Assembly (NCBI GenBank): GCA_022539475.1
Contig: VCMS01000005.1
Location: forward strand, 372,001 to 436,000
Direction of reading: 5' to 3'
Source: Gracilaria domingensis
Taxonomy: Eukaryota > Rhodophyta > Florideophyceae > Gracilariales > Gracilariaceae
Length of the DNA: 64,000 nt
The notes below the pieces were generated by a model, which saw only the letters and a program-made list of their open reading frames with translations, did not search any database and was not told where the DNA came from. A program made the translations under genes and the position numbers. Below are positions 7,920-40,867 of the stretch, piece by piece. Each line of letters begins with the position of its first letter. Positions within the stretch are counted from its first letter, which is position 1.

Positions 7920-9488
7920 CTTTAAAGTTAGTTGAGTTACAAGTCAAACACGATAATCCAGTTGCTTCTCGCTCTTGGCAGTGTGAGGAGGGTAGTAACG
8001 AGAGAGAAGGAAGAAGGTATGAAGGCAATTTAAGTACTTGATCGGATTGACAGGAAGGCATGTCCCGTTAGGCACTGCTGGTCTAGACTGTCAGGGAAGA
8101 AGTCTCAATGGAGAAGCAAATTTCTGGGACACCTAGGAGTGTGGAACGGGTGAGTGAGAACCATTTTCTCTCGTTAGCACCGGGGGCAGGCCCGTCGTAG
8201 TGATTAGCTTGGGCGGACTTAACTCGAGCTCAGGCATGTTTCATGGCTTTGCTGCCGTCTGAAATTGAGACACTATCAGCTTGGGTTCATCTCGAGGATG
8301 TACATACTGCGGGTGCCATAGCCTGGGCGCCATCATGGCCCGTTATGACACATGCGTTTTGCTCACGAATCTTCGGGTCTTCTGACAGCATTTTCTTAGC
8401 TGATATGATACCTTGCGCATGTGGCATGTCACTCATTTTCGATCTCTCTTTGCAATGCCAATTGAATAAGTCAAATTGAATGGGGATCTAATGCGACAGA
8501 GACGCCTACAACAGTTGTATGACAGGCCCAAGAGTGATCTGTAGTGGAGTTATCCTGCATCGTGAAGAAAAAGGGGAGCTAGCTAGGTGGTGTTCGCATT
8601 GTCCGTAGAAGGACCGCACTGGGCAAAATAAGGGTAATCCTCAATAGAATCTGGGGTTCTTTCGCTTAAACAGAGAGCATAATATGACTAGGATGATTGG
8701 AGCCATGTGAAACAACGAAAGTTATGTTCACTCTATCGAACCGCGAGCAGCAAAAAATGCTTTTCTGAGTATGGTTTGGTAGCTCAGCAAAGTAGCTCAC
8801 ATTTGGCACTAAATGTGAAACGCAGAGTAGCGAGCCGCTAACGATGCTGAATAAAGTGAGCTGCAGTTGGGTCCCAAAGCTGTCTCGGTTTAGCCTTGGC
8901 CCTTTCCTTCTAGCTAGATTGGAGGCATACTGATGTAACGGTGTTTGCTCCTGGCCTTACAAGAAAGATGAATGAGAAAGTCAGTGTGCCGTATGCATCC
9001 AGACACCATGTACGTGTACCTTTGCAGCCATCTCGTTAGGCAGCCAGGGATGTTCGAAAGCTCGAAAACCGTTTCGACATGTTTGAACTGTTTCCTATGT
9101 ACAATTGTGCCTTTGTACGACCTAATCAGTAAACTGGGCGCAAGAGCTCGCTACTCTTCATGGATATTGGCGCCCAGGTGCGCAAGTTACGCTGAAAATG
9201 CATGATAGAACGAGCCGTTTAAAACAGTTGTTGCGTGAGTGAAAATTGCCCCATAAACTTCGTGATTAGGAATAGTTGCTTTGTGCAAGACCGAGGTTAT
9301 TGCCATATGATACTCGCTAGGGCCAGCAAAACTCTTATGTTGTGACCAAGCAGAACAAGTTTGGACCAAGGGCAGCTGTTCACGAGTAGGACCTGATGGG
9401 GTTTCTGATACGTGAATCCATAACGGCCAACGCGGAAGTGCTTTGAAACTGCGCGTCAGTTGGACCAGATGGCTCGAGCGAAATGGGA
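7920..9488. other. intergenic, nothing recognised
   Basis: About 1.6 kb containing the copy 3 leader and then no supported gene. An ATG-led frame at 8243-8479 (78 codons) and another at 8972-9205 have no recognisable content. Confidence 0.5.
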
Positions 9489-19963: not shown

Positions 19964-22900
19964 ATGGCTTCCGCTCTCGTCTCTTTGCGCGTCGACGATT
20001 TGTTCTGCGGCGGCTGTGTTGGCACCGTCACCGAAGCGTTGGAGGCCGTGCCCGCCGTCGACAACGTCCAGGTCGACCTCGAAACCGGCGTTGCAACCCT
20101 TTTGTTCGATGGCGACCCGCAGCTTTTGCTGGATGCCACCGAGAACGTGGGCAAGACATCGACGCTCATCTCGCAGCAAAAGCCTGCAACGTCGCCGCGC
20201 CGCCTCACGTTCCGAATCGATGGCATGACGTGCAACAATTGCGTCAACAAGATATCGGCTGCCTTGTCTGCTCTGCCGTCCGCATCTGACGTCAACGTCC
20301 AGCTAGAGAGCAAAACCGCCTCGCTCCAGTTCAGCGGCGAGGTCGAGCAAGTCATTGCGGCCGTGCAGCAAACTGGAAAACGCGCCACTCTCCTCCCAGA
20401 TACGCCTCGTCCTCGTGCTCTTACTCTCGAGGTTGACGCCATGACATGCATGGCATGCGTGCGAACTGTGGCCAATGCCCTCAGTGCCGTCAACGGCACA
20501 GAAAACGTCCATGTCGATCTCGACACCGGTGTGGCAACCCTTTTGTACGCAGACGATCCGCAAAATCTCATCAACGCCGTCATTGACGCTGGAAAGGCTG
20601 CCAAGCTTGTGTCGTCAACCGGTGTTGGTGAGCAAGAGCCGCAGAACAAAGGCACAAGCACCGACGACGATATCTCCTCGAGGCAACCCATTCCCTGCTT
20701 GGAGCCTCAATCCAGTGAGTTGCTTGCTTCCGAAACCCCTGATCTGAACAAAGTCACACCGTCTACACCAGATCACTCAGTAGAACGTGCCGCAAGCACC
20801 ACGACCCATCTACGAGTGAGCGGTATGACCTGTTCTAGCTGTGTTGGCGTCGTTGAAGGTGTGCTTTCCAATCTCGAGAGCGTCTCAACAGCACGAGTCA
20901 ACCTTCTCGCTGGACGCGCCACAGTTGAGCACGACTCTTCCATCACTTCGTCCCAGGAGCTCGCGGACGCTGTATCATCGTCAGGATACACAAGTGCTGT
21001 GCTTGATGTAATCGACGCCAAGCGAAAGGCCGACACACCAGGCACCGACGTCCAGTTTCGCATTATCTTTGAAACCAGCAGACTGGCATATAATGCCATG
21101 AAGGCACTGCGATTCCAGGATAGTGTTGATCACGTTGAAACTGATGATACGGCTGCTTCAATCACCCTTTCCCCGGGTTTCTCCAAGGCTACCGTGCTGC
21201 GCTTGCTGGAGCACGATGGAACCTTTGGGAAGATGATCGTGAAACAATCCGTAAAAGCCGAAAGGGAGTCCCTGAGGTCAGCCGATCAGTTCAGCCCCAC
21301 GGACGTGATCAATGAAGAGGCTCGCATGTGGAGAACGCGTTTTCTGTGGTCGCTGGCGTTCTTCTGTCCAGTTCTTACGATAAGCATCTTGCATTCACAC
21401 ACATCATTGGTGAGTATGCGATTTTTGGAACGTGCACACTTCCTTCTGGCAACCCCTGTGCAGTTTGGGTGCGGATATGGCTTCTACAGAGCCAGTTACT
21501 ATGCTATCCGCAAGCGGCGAGCAACCATGGACGTTCTCGTTGCGATGTCAACGTCTATTGTTTACTTTTCAAGCATTTTCGTCATGTTTCTTGGCAGTCC
21601 ACGGGGAGGGGATATGGCCCTTGGTCATGCAGTTATGTTCAAAGTATCCGTTATGATCATTACTATGGTTCTCATCGGCAAATGGTTAGAAGCGTCTGCA
21701 AAGCGTCGAGCCGCAGCAGGAGTTGCAGCTCTCTCTGCGCTAGCTCCAGAAAACGCGGTCCTCTTTGACGAAGTGGATGGAGTGACGTGTCATACTGAAG
21801 TGCCTGTGAAGGCTCTCGACGTCGGTGATGTGGTGAAACTTATTCCGGGGGATCGAGTGCCAGTGGACGGGGAAGTGCTAGAGGGTGTATCCGCTGTCGA
21901 CGAATCAATGTTGACTGGGGAAAGCCGACCAGTTCCCAAGGGCAAAGGGCATTCTCTTTTCGGCGGTACAGTGAACGGGGGCGGTTCCCTGCTTGTACGG
22001 ACTTCTGCGGTCGGTGCCGATGCGGTACTGTCTCAAATCGTCAGACTTGTGAACGACGCACAAACTGCCCGGGCTCCTGTGGAGGCGTTTGCAGATAACG
22101 TCTCTAGTGTCTTTGTACCAGTTGTAATTGTCATTGCGCTGCTTGTCTTTTGCTCATGGTACGCAGCTGCTTCTCTCGAGTGGATTCCGCATGAATGGTA
22201 CGCTGATGAAGGCAAGTTGCTGTTCGCAGCATTGTTTGCTTTGGAAACACTAGTCATTGCTTGTCCATGTGCTCTGGGGCTTGCCACTCCCACTGCTGTT
22301 ATGGTTGCATCGGAAATGGGTGCCAAAATGGGTGTTTTGTTCAAAGGTGGTGGTGGTGCCATCGAGGCCGCAAGCAAAGTGAAGCACATCATATTCGACA
22401 AGACCGGAACACTGACTATGGGGAAACCTGAAGTTGCGGCAGTGTTTGTTGGAGAACGAGGTTGCGCGACCACAGAACAAGCATCAGTAATTCTTTCAGA
22501 TATCATCTACTTGGTGGAATCAGAATCCCATCATCCACTAGCTTCTGCCATCACGAGGTACATCAGAAGCAGTCAAGGTGAAGTGGCTGTTCACGTTCGA
22601 AACCATGAAGCGTACAAGATCTCTGATATCAAAGAGGTTCCTGGTCAAGGAATGAAAGCCTCGATCAACAAAGGCGAGTATTCCGTGCGAATTGGTTCAA
22701 GACAATTCGCTTTTGGTGGCTTGGAAGAGCAAAAGCTTTTGACAGAAGGGGAGCTAAGAAGCATGCAGCGCATGGAAGAGCAAGACGGTTTGACCGTAGT
22801 TGTGGCTGTTGTGAACGAGAAGCTCACTTGCGTTTTTGGCTTGGAAGATATACTAAGGCCCGAAGCTCGTGATGTTGTGACAGCAATTGAGAGGATGGGA

Positions 22901-23536
22901 ATTTCCACAAGTGTTGTCACCGGAGACTCTGAAGAAACTGCTCGTGCTGTGGCGCTTCGCAGCGGGATTCCGTTGGATTCAATTCATGCCCGAGCCATGC
23001 CATGGACAAAGGTGGCTGTTGTTGAAGAAATGCAGCCAACATGTTTTGTCGGCGACGGAATCAATGACGCTCCGGCCCTTGCAGCAGCCTCAGTCGGTAT
23101 CGCTATAGGTGCCGGGGCACCTGTAGCAGCGGAATCTGCAGCTGTGGTGTTGGTGCGAAGTAATCTTCGAGGGGTTGTGAACGCTTTAGATCTGGCACAG
23201 CATGCGTTTCGAAGGGTCAGACTGAACTTCTTTTGGGCTGTTGGTTACAACCTTCTTGGAATCCCTTTGGCAGCCGGTGCTTTGTATCCCATATTTCGAG
23301 TGAGAGTCCCGCCTTTTGTCGCTAGTGGGGCAATGGCTTTATCCAGCACGTGTGTTGTGCTAAGTTCCTTGGCACTACGATGGTATAAAGCGCCCATTAT
23401 TGGGGACGATGTAATCGGTGAACGTGGTACGGAGATGCTGGATGCTTCTCCTGAGACATTTGTGCTGGAGGAGGAAATTGCTTCGTCAGATGGCGAACAT
23501 GACGTGGAATCCCCTTTTATCAGCTCAAGAGCGTAG
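19964..23536 (+). CDS. copper-transporting P1B-type ATPase (RAN1/CCC2/ATP7 group)
   Basis: A 1190-residue P-type ATPase that pumps Cu(I) into the Golgi/endomembrane lumen or out of the cell. Four N-terminal HMA metal-binding domains carry CxxC pairs at C15/C18, C90/C93, C162/C165 and C290/C293. A fifth HMA-like fold (about 365-425) has lost its cysteines. Then come the membrane domain, the actuator loop TGES (651-654), and the transmembrane CPC motif (767-769) that defines Cu(I) specificity. The phosphorylation site DKTGTLT starts at D812. The SESHHP motif follows, and then GDGINDAPAL (from about 1030). ATG 19964 is the first in-frame ATG; the upstream open frame starts only from GTG. The 5' end is GC-rich and grades into ordinary composition. 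No intron. The C terminus has no dileucine-type signal that I can name. Confidence 0.95.
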   Translation: MASALVSLRVDDLFCGGCVGTVTEALEAVPAVDNVQVDLETGVATLLFDGDPQLLLDATENVGKTSTLISQQKPATSPRRLTFRIDGMTCNNCVNKISAALSALPSASDVNVQLESKTASLQFSGEVEQVIAAVQQTGKRATLLPDTPRPRALTLEVDAMTCMACVRTVANALSAVNGTENVHVDLDTGVATLLYADDPQNLINAVIDAGKAAKLVSSTGVGEQEPQNKGTSTDDDISSRQPIPCLEPQSSELLASETPDLNKVTPSTPDHSVERAASTTTHLRVSGMTCSSCVGVVEGVLSNLESVSTARVNLLAGRATVEHDSSITSSQELADAVSSSGYTSAVLDVIDAKRKADTPGTDVQFRIIFETSRLAYNAMKALRFQDSVDHVETDDTAASITLSPGFSKATVLRLLEHDGTFGKMIVKQSVKAERESLRSADQFSPTDVINEEARMWRTRFLWSLAFFCPVLTISILHSHTSLVSMRFLERAHFLLATPVQFGCGYGFYRASYYAIRKRRATMDVLVAMSTSIVYFSSIFVMFLGSPRGGDMALGHAVMFKVSVMIITMVLIGKWLEASAKRRAAAGVAALSALAPENAVLFDEVDGVTCHTEVPVKALDVGDVVKLIPGDRVPVDGEVLEGVSAVDESMLTGESRPVPKGKGHSLFGGTVNGGGSLLVRTSAVGADAVLSQIVRLVNDAQTARAPVEAFADNVSSVFVPVVIVIALLVFCSWYAAASLEWIPHEWYADEGKLLFAALFALETLVIACPCALGLATPTAVMVASEMGAKMGVLFKGGGGAIEAASKVKHIIFDKTGTLTMGKPEVAAVFVGERGCATTEQASVILSDIIYLVESESHHPLASAITRYIRSSQGEVAVHVRNHEAYKISDIKEVPGQGMKASINKGEYSVRIGSRQFAFGGLEEQKLLTEGELRSMQRMEEQDGLTVVVAVVNEKLTCVFGLEDILRPEARDVVTAIERMGISTSVVTGDSEETARAVALRSGIPLDSIHARAMPWTKVAVVEEMQPTCFVGDGINDAPALAAASVGIAIGAGAPVAAESAAVVLVRSNLRGVVNALDLAQHAFRRVRLNFFWAVGYNLLGIPLAAGALYPIFRVRVPPFVASGAMALSSTCVVLSSLALRWYKAPIIGDDVIGERGTEMLDASPETFVLEEEIASSDGEHDVESPFISSRA

Positions 23537-32220: not shown

Positions 32221-33215
32221 TAGATTGGATTTTATGGGAGTCTCAGTGGATCTGTGAGACAAGACATGTATGGAATTGATAAGATAAGAAGTGGGGATGG
32301 AATAAAAAAGATGTTGAAGGGTGAGCATCATTTCTTCCTCGTAACGATATGCAATCCACAAGGAGTGGCAGGAACTCCTTGGTGAGCATATACTTATATG
32401 ACAAGGATGGGGAGCGACTTGGAAGTAATATGATCATGACCATGATGATGGGCGGTGAGACAAGTATCGTACGGAATAACAGAAGACAAATACAACTTGA
32501 ACAAATATCGTGAGAACGGCAGACAGAATGTAACCATGTTATTTAGCCTTGTTAGCAATAGCAAGACGGGGAACACAAAATGCGTCGTTCGATGCAGTTA
32601 TGTCGTCCATGATGCAACACGGACGGAAAGGAAACTCGAGAGGGTGCCGCACCTTCTGTTTGGCGTCAGAAAAGGCGCATGGTTGCCAGCACCGCGTACA
32701 CCAGCCTGAAGAGACGCAGCGAGCGCAGCTCTCCACGTGGGAAGATTACAGCGGAGTTCTATACGCGGTACTGGCGCGCGCCGTGTCACGTGCTGTCATT
32801 CGTCACGCTTGAATTGAGCTGCGCTTTGAAGCACGTGATACTAACGTGCGTGATCGCGGAGAATTCAGCATTCAGCGTGTTGCAAGATGGACCTTCGCTC
32901 TCGCTCCGCGTCGCCGCAAATCGATGAGCGTCCTCCCAAGGATATGTGCGGACCATATGTATCGCTTCCTCTGTGCCAGCAGCGCATCTCGATCCGATTT
33001 GCTTGACAGTCTGGCCACGCATCGCCTTCAGGCTCTGCTCCGCCACCGCCGTCTTTCGTGAGGTATCCTGTATGTAAAGAACGTCTTCGTTCACCGAGTT
33101 CTTGCGCCTCGGCCTCCCCGGTAGAACCAACCCCCGCATCGACCTCACCCCCCCCCCCCCCCCCCCCCCCTTGGGATCGTCTCTGCTTTCGAGACGCCGC
33201 TGTTCTTTGCCCATC
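32221..33215. other. leader region of the transporter-transferase fusion
   Basis: The only notable feature is a run of 23 C on the sense strand (33148-33170), 45 bp before the ATG. Short open frames on both strands are not supported. Confidence 0.5.
33148..33170 (+). repeat. homopolymer C23 in the leader of the fusion gene
   Basis: Twenty-three C on the sense strand, 45 bp upstream of ATG 33216. Compare C16 before the CDCA7-like gene and C9 before the gene at 28428. Confidence 0.9.
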
Positions 33216-35585
33216 ATGACAGGGCTTTCTACACCATCCGTACCCGGCGCTGCCTTTTTGTCCAAGTTCTCTACCATTGGATTCCTTTTTCTAGTATGGT
33301 GGGCTTGTAACAACATATACGCGATCGATGCCCAGATTTTGCTCACAAAATTCTCGTCTGAGTTGCTCTTCATCGATTTGTCCTTTGCGCAAATCCTCGT
33401 CGGCATGGCCATGGCCACTATGCTATCCATTTCGAAACCTGCCTTTCAGAGTTCAAACTCGAAAGATTATGCCAATCTTCCAATTTTCTCCATCCGCTCT
33501 GTTCAATACGCTTCGCTCGCAATTGGCTTCTTTCATCTTATTGGCACCATCATGACCAACTCCTCGTACAAGCTCCTCGGATCTACCTCGACGCTGATGT
33601 GGAAACTCACCGAACCACTCGCCGCATTGGTGCTGAAGCGATTAGTTCTATCTGAATCCACGTCCCTCGTTTCAGTCTTTGGAATGGCCATGGTGCTCAC
33701 AGGTGTGCTCATTTTCTCTGGAAACTCTTTCACGGTTCTCACTGTATCACCAATCGTTCTCGCCAATCTTTGCTTTCCCATGCGCAATATCCTTATCAAG
33801 AAGGATCAGCGAGATAATTCTATGAACCTCTCTACCGAACAACGTTATTTTATCTTACAAGCCTCGAGTCTCCCCTTCGCTCTCATTATTCTCAGTTACA
33901 AGTTCATTTTCTACGGTCTGCAGCTTCCATCCTTCCCTTATCTCATTCGAAATGCCGTTCTCTTCAACTCGTATCAGTTTGCAAGTATAGCCCTGCTTGA
34001 ACGAATGGATGCGCTGACACATTCACTCCTTAACACTCTGAAGCGATTCACTGGCATTCTTGTGTCTGCATTGGTTCTCGGCGACCCATTCGGGATCACT
34101 CACTTCATCGGCTTGACAATGGCCGCGTTTGGTTTCCCATTGTACTTGCTTGGAAAGGAGACAGACGCAGCGAAGAATAAGAAGAGGCGCATGAAGGCTC
34201 TGGCTTTTATTCAATTTTTCATGCTTGCCGCTGTCATTGCCTCTGCTTGCTTGGACGTCGCTCGGAAACCATCTGGGAAGTACAATGCTGCTGCTAAAGG
34301 GCCCTCCGGTCTATCACTTTTCAATACCACCGAGAAGATTTCTGCCCTACCCGTTTCTATTCAGTCACTGTCTCTTCCCTCTTCTGTGTTGTCGTGGCCA
34401 TCGGACGGTTCTGCTAATGATCCGGAATCCAAGAAAGGTTCAGACAAAGAATACATCATAGCAAATCTCGTTTCATATCCAAACGCACACATTGAATACG
34501 ATAACTACGAAGATGCCCTCAAGGATACCGGCAAAAACCACGGAAACCTGGTGTGGCAATTTGCCACGATGAACAGATTGGTCGATTTCACATCAGTTAC
34601 CACCTGCAACAACACAAGGCTTAAATGCCAGTCTGAAATAGACTTGGGTGGCAAGCAGATGATGTTCTATCGACCGATCGCTAACATTTTCGACATCACA
34701 AGTACGATGAAGTTCGCATATGAGCGACTCATTGTGGAGAGGGACGGAGACGCCTTGCTGTTTGTTGGAATTGGTATTCAACAGTTTTTCCAACCGGATA
34801 TTCGCATCGACGATTTAAATCCCGGAGAGAAGATACGAACAACGCCAAAGGACTTCAAGTTCTCCGAACACGCGTTGAAGATGCTTAAAACGTTACAGGA
34901 ACACAAATTACCCATGTTTGTCCGTGGTCAGTTTACGCTGGAGGCCGCACGGCATGCTGGGTATAAATACGGCCTCTCGACTGGATGTCCAAGTCTATTC
35001 ATCAATCAAGATGTTCATCTTGGTCGCTCCTTAGAGCAGAAATACAACGCCCTGAAAGAGAGAACTGGAGATTACAGTCTCAAAATCGCTCTGAACATGA
35101 AACCGCAGAGGAAACTGACCGATTTCTTCATCAGTGTGCTCAACGCCTATCCGAACAGCTACATGTACGCTCAAACCCTTGATGATCTGAATCAAATGAA
35201 GAAGGCTAAAATTCCGTTCAGCCGCATTAAGTTCATCAGTGACGCCGAGGAGTGGATGGATAGCTTGCGAGAAATGGATGTTGCGTTTGGAGCTCGGATT
35301 CATGGGAATATGATTGCCCTGGGCGCTGGAATTCCTGGTTTCGTTATTGCACCAGACCATCGAGTCTTGGAGTTAGTTGAACGCATGAAGATTCCACATA
35401 CTACAATCTATGACGAGAGATTGAAGGAAGGCTTGGATGTGGCCAAACTCATCACTGATATTGGTTTCTCTGGAGCGGACTTCGATTCGAATCGCTGTGG
35501 CATAGCCAAGACGTACAATGATGTGTTCGGGCGGTATGGACTTCCACTGTCAAGACATGCACAAGAGATAAGTACGATTTGCTGA
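33216..35585 (+). CDS. fusion: TPT-family transporter (PEP or nucleotide-sugar type) + polysaccharide pyruvyl transferase
   Basis: One uninterrupted 789-residue frame. Residues 15-320 form a ten-helix drug/metabolite-superfamily carrier. The TPT-like signature is ALTHSLLNTLKRFTGIL with GDPFG after it, as in triose-phosphate/PEP translocators and nucleotide-sugar carriers. After a basic cytosolic stretch (KNKKRRMK) there is an eleventh hydrophobic segment (about 328-347). A 60-residue Ser/Pro linker and a polysaccharide pyruvyl transferase domain (about 410-789) follow. Key parts of that domain are GNLVWQF, LLFVGIGIQ, PMFVRGQFTLEAA, the GCPSLF strand, and the hallmark GARIHGNMIALGAGIPGF (from 692) followed by DHRVLEL. 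These enzymes move the enolpyruvyl group of PEP to make 4,6-pyruvate ketals on galactose. The extra helix would put the enzyme in the lumen if the carrier has standard topology. ATG 33216; the upstream frame starts only from TTG. Confidence 0.85.
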   Translation: MTGLSTPSVPGAAFLSKFSTIGFLFLVWWACNNIYAIDAQILLTKFSSELLFIDLSFAQILVGMAMATMLSISKPAFQSSNSKDYANLPIFSIRSVQYASLAIGFFHLIGTIMTNSSYKLLGSTSTLMWKLTEPLAALVLKRLVLSESTSLVSVFGMAMVLTGVLIFSGNSFTVLTVSPIVLANLCFPMRNILIKKDQRDNSMNLSTEQRYFILQASSLPFALIILSYKFIFYGLQLPSFPYLIRNAVLFNSYQFASIALLERMDALTHSLLNTLKRFTGILVSALVLGDPFGITHFIGLTMAAFGFPLYLLGKETDAAKNKKRRMKALAFIQFFMLAAVIASACLDVARKPSGKYNAAAKGPSGLSLFNTTEKISALPVSIQSLSLPSSVLSWPSDGSANDPESKKGSDKEYIIANLVSYPNAHIEYDNYEDALKDTGKNHGNLVWQFATMNRLVDFTSVTTCNNTRLKCQSEIDLGGKQMMFYRPIANIFDITSTMKFAYERLIVERDGDALLFVGIGIQQFFQPDIRIDDLNPGEKIRTTPKDFKFSEHALKMLKTLQEHKLPMFVRGQFTLEAARHAGYKYGLSTGCPSLFINQDVHLGRSLEQKYNALKERTGDYSLKIALNMKPQRKLTDFFISVLNAYPNSYMYAQTLDDLNQMKKAKIPFSRIKFISDAEEWMDSLREMDVAFGARIHGNMIALGAGIPGFVIAPDHRVLELVERMKIPHTTIYDERLKEGLDVAKLITDIGFSGADFDSNRCGIAKTYNDVFGRYGLPLSRHAQEISTIC

Positions 35586-38587: not shown

Positions 38588-40867
38588 ATGGGGTCAGCGG
38601 ACCCCCACTACGAAGCCTGGAAGGACAACAAAGATGGCACCGCCTGCGTTCGCGACGACCGGTATCTCGAGCCGTTTGCAGACGCCTTGCGATACCGCTT
38701 TGCAAAGTATTCTGAGATCCTGTCCGCCATCGAGTCCAGCGAGAAGTCGCTGGAAAACTTCTCCAGGGGGTATGAGACCATGGGAATCCATCGCGTCAAA
38801 GGCGGCGTCCGCTACAGGGAATGGGCGCCCAGCGCTCGTGAAATGTACTTCTTCGGTGAGTTTAACAACTGGGATCGAAACGCCATCCCGATGCAGCGCG
38901 ATGAGTTTGGAATCTGGTCCTGTTTTATTCCGGAAACTGAACCCGGCGTTTCCCCTATCAAGCACGGCTCAAAGGTGAAGGCTGCCGTCGTCCCCCATCA
39001 CGGGCCCTGGCTTGATCGCAATCCTGCCTGGGCCACCTTTTGCGTGCAAAATCCTAACACTTTCCTGTACGACACCGTGTTTTGGGATCCGCCCGAGAAG
39101 TACAAATGGACTGCACCGGATCACGTGAAGCGCCCGGAGTCGCTGCGCATCTATGAATGCCATGTAGGAATGGGGTCCAATGATCTCAAGGTTGGCTCGT
39201 ATCGTGAGTTTGCTGATAATGTTTTACCACGTATTAAGGAGACCGGTTATACTGCCCTGCAGATTATGGCCATTATGGAACATGCGTACTATGCTAGTTT
39301 CGGCTATCACGTCACCAATTTCTTTGCGATTAGTTCCAGATGCGGCCACCCGGAAGATCTCAAGTACCTCATCGACAAGGCACATCAGCTCGGATTGTAT
39401 GTGCTTATGGATGTAGTCCACTCTCACGCATCGAGCAACTCTATGGATGGTATTAATAACTTTGATGGTACTGACCATCAATACTTTCACGAAGGTGAAC
39501 GGGGGCGACATTCTCTGTGGGACTCGAGACTTTTCAACTACGGCCATTGGGAAGTACTCCGTTTCCTCTTATCCAATCTCAGATGGTACATGGACGAATA
39601 TCACTTTGACGGTTTTCGGTTTGATGGCGTCACATCAATGCTGTACTTGCATTCTGGAATTGGCGTACAATTTACTGGTAACTATAGCGAGTACTTTGGT
39701 TTCCAAGTTGATGTCGATGCATGTGTTTACATGATGCTCGCTAACAAGCTTGTGCACGACCTGTACCCTGATGTGGCGGTTACCATCGCAGAGGATGTGA
39801 GTGGTATGCCGACTTTATGCGTGCCCGTAGAGCGTGGAGGTCTTGGGTTTGACTATCGTCTTGCTATGGCCATTCCTGACATGTGGATAGAGGTCTTGGA
39901 AAAGGAAAAAGATGAGAACTGGAATATGGGCAACATTGTTTTCACTCTTACAAATCGTCGTTGGAACGAGAAGTCCATTGGTTACTGCGAGAGTCATGAT
40001 CAAGCACTGGTGGGAGATAAAACGATCGCGTTCTGGTTGATGGATGCGGCGATGTATACTGACATGAGTTGCAATGGCTATCCCACACCTGTGATCGAGC
40101 GAGGCATCGCTCTTCACAAAATGATTCGATTGCTTACAATGTGTTTGTCTGGCGAGGGATACCTGACATTTATGGGAAATGAGTTTGGACATCCAGAATG
40201 GATTGATTTTCCACGTGAAGGTAACGGTAATTCCTATCAACATGCGCGTCGTCGATGGGACCTCTGTGACAATGAAGCACTTCGTTACAAGCATTTGTTC
40301 GAGTTTGAGAAAATGATGCATGCGTTGGATGGTGAGCATCCCTTCTGTCGATTCCAAGCGCATCAGTATGTAGTGCTACAACATGAAGGTGACAAACTGA
40401 TCGTGATTGAAAAGGGTGATCGGTTGTTGTTTGTGTTCAACTTCCACCATTCGCAGTCGTACAGTGATTATCGAATTGGAACATACTGGGGTGGCCGATA
40501 TAAACTTGTCCTTGATTCAGATGGAATGAACACTGGTGGACATGGTCGGGTACACTGGGATGTGGTGCATACTACTTGTACCGAGCCCTGGCAGAATCGA
40601 CCGTATTACCTACAGGTGTATGTCCCAGCGCGGACATGTCAAGTGTATTATTGCTTTGAAACATGGGAAGAGGAGAGAGAGAATGCGGAGAAGGACAAGC
40701 AGACTACGAAAAAGGCGGAGAGTGTTGTTGGCAGTACGAAAGAGAAAGCCAATACGGAAGTTGAGGAGGTTGCAGCGGTTGCAGTCAAGATTGACGAGAA
40801 AGTGCACTTGAACGGCCAAAAGGCCCCGGAGAAGCGACAGGAGAAAGTTGTAGTTGGGAAGGCTTAG
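38588..40867 (+). CDS. GBE1: 1,4-alpha-glucan (starch/glycogen) branching enzyme
   Basis: A 759-residue branching enzyme of the eukaryotic GH13_8 group. It has a CBM48 module (about 77-160, REWAPSAREMYFFGEFNNW) and a catalytic barrel. Visible catalytic elements are DVVHSHASSN, the nucleophile D346 in GFRFDGV, the general acid E402 in AEDVSGMP, and the transition-state stabiliser D471 in ESHDQALVGDK. The C-terminal beta domain follows. A Lys/Glu-rich tail of about 65 residues beyond the normal end is unusual and looks disordered. There is no transit peptide, so the enzyme should be cytosolic, where red algae make floridean starch. It creates alpha-1,6 branches. ATG 38588, no intron. Confidence 0.95.
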   Translation: MGSADPHYEAWKDNKDGTACVRDDRYLEPFADALRYRFAKYSEILSAIESSEKSLENFSRGYETMGIHRVKGGVRYREWAPSAREMYFFGEFNNWDRNAIPMQRDEFGIWSCFIPETEPGVSPIKHGSKVKAAVVPHHGPWLDRNPAWATFCVQNPNTFLYDTVFWDPPEKYKWTAPDHVKRPESLRIYECHVGMGSNDLKVGSYREFADNVLPRIKETGYTALQIMAIMEHAYYASFGYHVTNFFAISSRCGHPEDLKYLIDKAHQLGLYVLMDVVHSHASSNSMDGINNFDGTDHQYFHEGERGRHSLWDSRLFNYGHWEVLRFLLSNLRWYMDEYHFDGFRFDGVTSMLYLHSGIGVQFTGNYSEYFGFQVDVDACVYMMLANKLVHDLYPDVAVTIAEDVSGMPTLCVPVERGGLGFDYRLAMAIPDMWIEVLEKEKDENWNMGNIVFTLTNRRWNEKSIGYCESHDQALVGDKTIAFWLMDAAMYTDMSCNGYPTPVIERGIALHKMIRLLTMCLSGEGYLTFMGNEFGHPEWIDFPREGNGNSYQHARRRWDLCDNEALRYKHLFEFEKMMHALDGEHPFCRFQAHQYVVLQHEGDKLIVIEKGDRLLFVFNFHHSQSYSDYRIGTYWGGRYKLVLDSDGMNTGGHGRVHWDVVHTTCTEPWQNRPYYLQVYVPARTCQVYYCFETWEEERENAEKDKQTTKKAESVVGSTKEKANTEVEEVAAVAVKIDEKVHLNGQKAPEKRQEKVVVGKA

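Follow-up and report, generated by a model that had tools for sequence, protein, structure and literature searches.

The locus considered here, in Gracilaria domingensis, raises the question of whether a membrane carrier and an enzyme that could use its cargo are made as one polypeptide and, if so, on which side of the membrane that enzyme would work. In the 64,000-nucleotide stretch of DNA that was analysed, called the window hereafter, the first-pass annotation had pointed to one 789-residue chain made of a ten-helix TPT-type carrier, an additional hydrophobic helix after KNKKRRMK and a polysaccharide pyruvyl transferase recognisable by its GARIHGNM motif, and each of these parts has since found support. 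The frame is unbroken (Table 1) and gives two Pfam matches above cut-off, namely PF03151 over residues 20-310 (76.6 bits, cut-off 30) for the carrier and PF04230 over residues 557-715 (42.2 bits, cut-off 25.3) for the transferase, the whole fold of which covers about residues 413-789; both the carrier signature THSLLNTLKRFTGIL and GARIHGNM are present in the protein. In the AlphaFold2 model, ten carrier helices lie within residues 10-323 (123-130 and 133-145 being counted as one), in a ten-helix fold like that of 5y78, and are followed by helix 11 (327-349), then by a stem modelled with low confidence (347-410) that leads to an independent alpha/beta domain (413-789). Right after KNKKRRMK, the segment 328-346 has a mean Kyte-Doolittle hydropathy of 2.31 over 19 residues, in agreement with the modelled helix 11. 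A long run of C occurs at window positions 33140-33175, shortly upstream of the start codon.

Table 1. Parts of the fusion gene, numbered from the first nucleotide of the window
Feature	Position	Strand	Basis or remark
Whole fusion gene	33216-35585	+	Single ATG frame, 789 codons, 0 internal stops; coordinates include the stop codon
TPT-family carrier domain, residues 20-310, ten helices	33273-34145	+	PF03151
K276-R277, putative substrate pocket	34041-34046	+	Aligned with Galdieria K362-R363; Arabidopsis TPT pocket residues as named in excerpts of PMC6981301
Internal ATG (M302), start of database protein P0003	34119-34121	+	Most of the carrier half is missing from P0003
Basic loop preceding the extra helix, residues 315-327	34158-34196	+	6 K/R of 13
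Predicted eleventh membrane helix, residues about 328-347	34197-34256	+	Hydropathy and AlphaFold2 model
Disordered stem, residues 348-411	34257-34448	+	pLDDT <50 over 347-410; one sequon, N370
Pyruvyl transferase fold, residues 413-789	34452-35582	+	AlphaFold2 model
Sequon N465, between conserved C464 and C471	34608-34616	+	12/20 family rows
R570, motif equivalent of Pvg1 R217 / CsaB R148	34923-34925	+	25/25 and 33/33 rows in two alignments
R694-I-H696, motif equivalent of Pvg1 R337-L-H339	35295-35303	+	25/25 and 33/33 rows in two alignments

The fusion is conserved and real. The G. domingensis genome contains five matches to the whole protein, three of which, on C5, C46 and C304, contain the fusion in full, and the same arrangement is found in other Gracilariales, namely Gracilariopsis chorda (P0005, P0006) and Agarophyton chilense (P0002), as well as in 13 further records, which together exclude a chance frame or a misassembly. 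Homologue searches scored the best 7993-7995 candidates of each, the 13 further records being taken as algal relatives, and no Chondrus, Porphyra or Cyanidiales appeared among the named matches listed from these candidates. Both Pfam labels were present in 14 of 17 homologue rows, one of which, P0015, is a piece of the C304 paralogue; the remaining three are P0014, where both halves are recognisable by sequence with the enzyme half at 23.3 bits, just below the 25.3 cut-off, P0003, which is part of the window protein, and P0017, which is a stand-alone enzyme. Further searches brought up P0018 and P0022, each bearing the two labels, and P0019, which has the carrier and, by sequence, part of the enzyme half; in the more distant fusions the overall identity goes down to 33-46%. 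Regarding transcription, P0001 (a Trinity transcript by its name, 814 aa, 80% identical to the window protein) and P0002 (811 aa, 77% identical, represented by a genome record and by a GEZJ entry that we take to be a transcriptome accession) both hold the two halves in one frame at full length, so that in relatives at least the single transcript proposed for this locus is corroborated. Public names cover one half only, P0005 and P0006 being named chloroplast translocators and the G. domingensis protein P0015, which begins at an inner Met, pyruvyl transferase; in other words, the fusion has been hidden in public records by such one-half names.

Altogether, four pyruvyl transferase loci were found in the G. 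domingensis genome, i.e. the three fusions and a separate PF04230 protein on C381 (L009:1228-2439, 403 aa), in which an N-terminal hydrophobic segment is seen by eye and which displays NxGD as well as SYH where R-x-H is expected. The fusion paralogue on C304 (L003:1498-3801) sits on a long branch, with Tyr at the place of Pvg1 D106 and Pro at position 716, and its activity is possibly changed or lost.

As for the carrier half, the 20 sequences counted (including P0020 and P0021, which show no enzyme half) form one clade (100/100) when a tree is built from them and 21 further TPT-family genes of G. domingensis. This tree was made without P0016 and P0022, whose carrier part is short, without L018, which equals L017, and without the short L035-L038; no tree included P0003 or P0015, which are pieces of the window protein and of the C304 protein. 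The carrier clade is weakly grouped (89/52) with L010-L012, among which the best own-genome BLAST match is found for all 20 carrier halves, the best score going in 18 of the 20 rows to L010 or L011 and not to L012, which we take to be PPT-like. No gene of the genome matches PF03151 more strongly than L010-L012 (338, 303 and 298 bits), and these three, from their scores and long N-terminal regions, appear to be of plastid type; with the carrier profile, three plastid-type translocators score 69, 68 and 57 bits and the other own carriers listed at most 21 bits. A Lys-Arg pair (SYSVANTFKRVCI) also occurs in the carrier L014 (C28), which does not belong to the plastid-type group, and the two TPT-family genes L017 (C138) and L018 (C524) have identical scores and frame lengths, so one may be an assembly duplicate.

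Pocket positions are given in the Galdieria numbering (185, 188, 204, 263, 339, 362, 363), which we assume in part, its offset agreeing with the entry numbering. In the window protein, K130, Y253, K276 and R277 align with Lys204, Tyr339, Lys362 and Arg363. The Tyr and the Lys-Arg pair are kept in all 20 carrier halves and K130 in all 18 having that column, the four residues occurring together in only 2 of the 21 other own TPT-family genes. The pocket His of TPT (Arabidopsis His184, Galdieria His185) is absent in 18/18, being replaced by Thr, as in the window carrier, or by Ser, Ala, Cys or Val, and position 263 is Phe in 14 of the 20 carrier halves, Ile in 3, Leu in 2 and Tyr in 1. Plastid phosphate translocators are described as antiporters of phosphate and phosphorylated compounds, with a PEP-specific member in the red alga Galdieria, and, in the excerpts of the same source that name the TPT pocket residues, Phe is proposed to bar PEP from Arabidopsis TPT (PMC6981301). 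With the Lys/Tyr/Lys-Arg set kept, the His lost and the Phe mostly retained, the assignment of the window protein as a carrier of phosphate compounds is well supported at the level of conserved residues, PEP being one candidate among these compounds. Plastid translocators (TPT, GPT, PPT; Galdieria 5y78) are single-domain proteins, whereas the window protein has an enzyme attached, is devoid of a long N-terminal extension and has the pocket His replaced.

In the enzyme half, R570, R694 and H696 are found in all 33 rows aligned, nine bacterial relatives included, and R716, which corresponds in position to CsaB K328, in 32 of them; eight of the nine bacterial rows were retrieved with a search pattern holding RIHG, outside of which R570 lies, so that only R570 and R716 are independent in those eight. 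The equivalent Arg and R-x-H residues, as matched here by motif and spacing to Pvg1 and CsaB, are tied to PEP binding in the portions of the two reports concerned (PMC4872226; PMC10435577), the latter of which also describes that a CsaB K328R enzyme is active and that pyruvyl transfer by CsaB frees phosphate from PEP. Where Pvg1 has the acceptor/catalytic Asp106, the window protein has Asn444, and this column reads Asn in 16, Asp in 2 and Tyr in 1 of the 19 rows labelled fused that contain it (a label that includes P0026, a record without carrier). Since Asn also occupies this place in all nine bacterial relatives examined, the window enzyme looks like a member of an NxGN subfamily, in which acceptor handling may differ, rather than like a dead enzyme. 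These bacterial CsaB-type/NxGN enzymes are likewise of PF04230 type with the PEP residues and, in 9/9 examined, with the NxGN motif, but they have no carrier half within the stretches taken and do not share the cysteine set of the fusions. The fold search could not separate Pvg1 (5ax7) from other GT-B proteins, and the CsaB equivalog TIGR03609 scored 20.8 bits, below its cut-off of 213.1.

On which side of the membrane this enzyme lies was approached by loop counts in which the AlphaFold helices were treated as membrane-spanning, P0010, P0012, P0014, P0016, P0019 and P0022 being left out. Lys plus Arg are more numerous in the loops of the N-terminal side than in those of the other side in all 14 full-length fusions (8-16 vs. 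0-6), the former loops being also longer in total, with about 0.15 vs. 0.07 Lys or Arg per residue. The loop preceding helix 11 has a mean of 4.57 K/R in 14.6 residues over these 14 fusions, exceeding the 15 residues after the helix in 12 and equalling them in 2, although basic residues are not rare past the helix, the window protein having 4 K/R among the 15 residues just after it. Behind the carrier, a hydrophobic segment was seen in each of the 21 KRF-containing rows tested (1.56-2.48), as well as in P0014. Together with the charge bias, this segment indicates that helix 11 would bring the enzyme to the non-cytosolic side, so the topology anticipated in the first-pass annotation holds as a prediction. 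Besides, among non-bacterial rows, C761 and C789 are present in 24/24, C471 in 23/23 and C464 in 22/23, and the same four columns contain one Cys in total among the nine bacterial relatives; such near-universal enzyme cysteines follow the pattern expected of disulfides. To a lumenal enzyme can be opposed that sequons are only in modest excess in the lumenal part (49 observed vs. 36.4 in the shuffled expectation), that the commonest one, N115 (15/20 rows), sits within a carrier helix and that N204 (5/20 rows) is in loop 6 on the cytosolic side. The charge bias and the cysteines without bacterial counterpart nevertheless make a lumenal enzyme the strongly favoured prediction.

The stand-alone relatives P0017, P0024 and P0025 have a type II-like N-terminal anchor, the P0023 record being without anchor, and in this light the fusion would correspond to a type II enzyme whose short cytosolic tail has its place taken by a ten-helix carrier. 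In the enzyme tree built without bacterial rows, the fused and stand-alone forms are split (97/94), and well-supported sister groups common to the carrier and enzyme trees are P0004/P0005, P0006/P0007 and the window protein with P0001 and P0002, an agreement as expected of a jointly inherited unit; with bacterial rows, the branching order is unsettled. All enzyme trees were computed without P0019, P0020 and P0021; P0026 was left out of the enzyme trees without bacterial rows and of one tree with them, and the C304 paralogue of a second enzyme tree without bacterial rows and of one with them.

From these features, the protein is probably a fused carrier-enzyme of the secretory pathway, in which a PEP/phosphate antiporter would feed a tethered lumenal pyruvyl transferase acting on a wall galactan. 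The carrier half would most likely swap cytosolic PEP for lumenal phosphate, the eleventh helix would take the flexible stem and the pyruvyl transferase into the lumen, and the imported PEP would end up as pyruvate ketals on galactose of the wall galactan, while the phosphate released would serve as the counter-substrate of the antiporter and exit through the carrier. With a carrier of phosphate-antiporter type, the phosphate from the enzyme could drive the exchange, and a single chain with a 1:1 ratio would close the cycle; antiport and phosphate release are properties described for the two families concerned, which the fusion protein may share. PEP as the carried substrate, the Golgi membrane and an agar-type galactan as acceptor are the presumed elements of this scheme. 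In its fullest version, one Golgi protein would import PEP, pyruvylate the wall galactan and expel its own phosphate, making a separate PEP carrier or phosphate exit unneeded, which is put forward tentatively, its chance being judged slightly short of even. With a modelled disordered stem of about 64 residues, local supply would be favoured over a rigid tunnel, and "tethered" is a safer word than the "channelled" used initially.

Other explanations can be weighed against this tethered import. An artefact of prediction or assembly, with two genes in reality, could be suspected from the G. domingensis database proteins P0003 and P0015, which begin within the carrier, but an unbroken frame, three own paralogues and full-length relatives from transcripts and other genomes make it vanishingly improbable. 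An enzyme on the cytosolic side, or a chain in the plastid envelope, would fit the plastid type of the nearest own carriers, the chloroplastic names of the Gracilariopsis records, the loop-6 sequons and the K/R after helix 11; it is nonetheless very unlikely given a charge bias without exception, cysteines missing from bacterial relatives, only about 16 residues ahead of helix 1 in the window protein and a C-terminal side reversed by helix 11.

More serious, though still unlikely, is the idea of a genuine fusion with a lumenal enzyme in which the carrier would transport a phosphate compound other than PEP (triose phosphate, 3-PGA or phosphate alone); acting as a phosphate exit, it would ease product build-up, PEP entering otherwise. 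The pocket Lys, Lys-Arg and Tyr are indeed kept in the absence of a PEP-specific signature, the supposedly PEP-excluding Phe prevails at the Galdieria 263 place and most of the best BLAST scores go to L010/L011 instead of L012, to which can be opposed the covalently joined enzyme that takes PEP as donor and the disappearance of the TPT pocket His in every carrier half having that column. It could also be conceived that the carrier half no longer transports and is a polytopic membrane anchor for the enzyme. Stand-alone relatives do with one anchor helix, so that a carrier is not required for anchoring as such. In an anchor without transport the pocket residues should have been lost, and their strict retention at 33-46% identity makes this explanation very improbable.

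Among known systems, the closest is that of Schizosaccharomyces pombe, where Pvg1 is a type II Golgi pyruvyl transferase (PMC4872226) and Pet1/Pet2 bring PEP into the Golgi, according to a review; these published descriptions, as far as their excerpts go, support the separation of PEP carriers and enzyme mentioned in the first-pass annotation. Both systems would be alike in having a PEP-using pyruvyl transferase behind a membrane anchor, but Pvg1 and Pet1/Pet2, the latter likened by description only, are separate proteins, whereas Gracilaria has one chain, with Asn in place of Pvg1 D106. A carrier and a lumenal user enzyme are likewise held together in the complexes of SLC35A2 with UGT8, B4GalT1 and Mgats, which, in the excerpts of the source, are non-covalent and concern nucleotide-sugar substrates (PMC9368800), in contrast to the covalent fusion of Gracilaria. 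Gracilaria agars are reported as commonly bearing pyruvate ketals (PMC10741836); no value for the pyruvate content of G. domingensis agar was found in the literature searched. In the portions of the literature found, the pyruvyl transferase of agar synthesis is mentioned only through the annotation of a unigene or as one category of a pathway scheme, and no title or abstract start in the open-access literature searched describes a carrier-pyruvyl transferase fusion, so that, within that literature, this fusion of two known families is apparently undescribed so far. The family thus offers a concrete candidate for the agar pyruvyl transferase, suggests a route by which PEP gets to the lumen and provides a natural case in which the carrier-enzyme coupling argued from the non-covalent complexes of the mammalian Golgi is covalent.

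Elsewhere in the window, a GT90 glycosyltransferase gene (PF05686; 46724-48394, minus strand) would be another possible wall or secretory enzyme. On the plus strand, the gene at 38588-40867 combines CBM48, alpha-amylase and alpha-amylase C domains and is starch branching enzyme-like, and that at 19964-23536 encodes a metal-transporting P-type ATPase with four heavy-metal-associated stretches.
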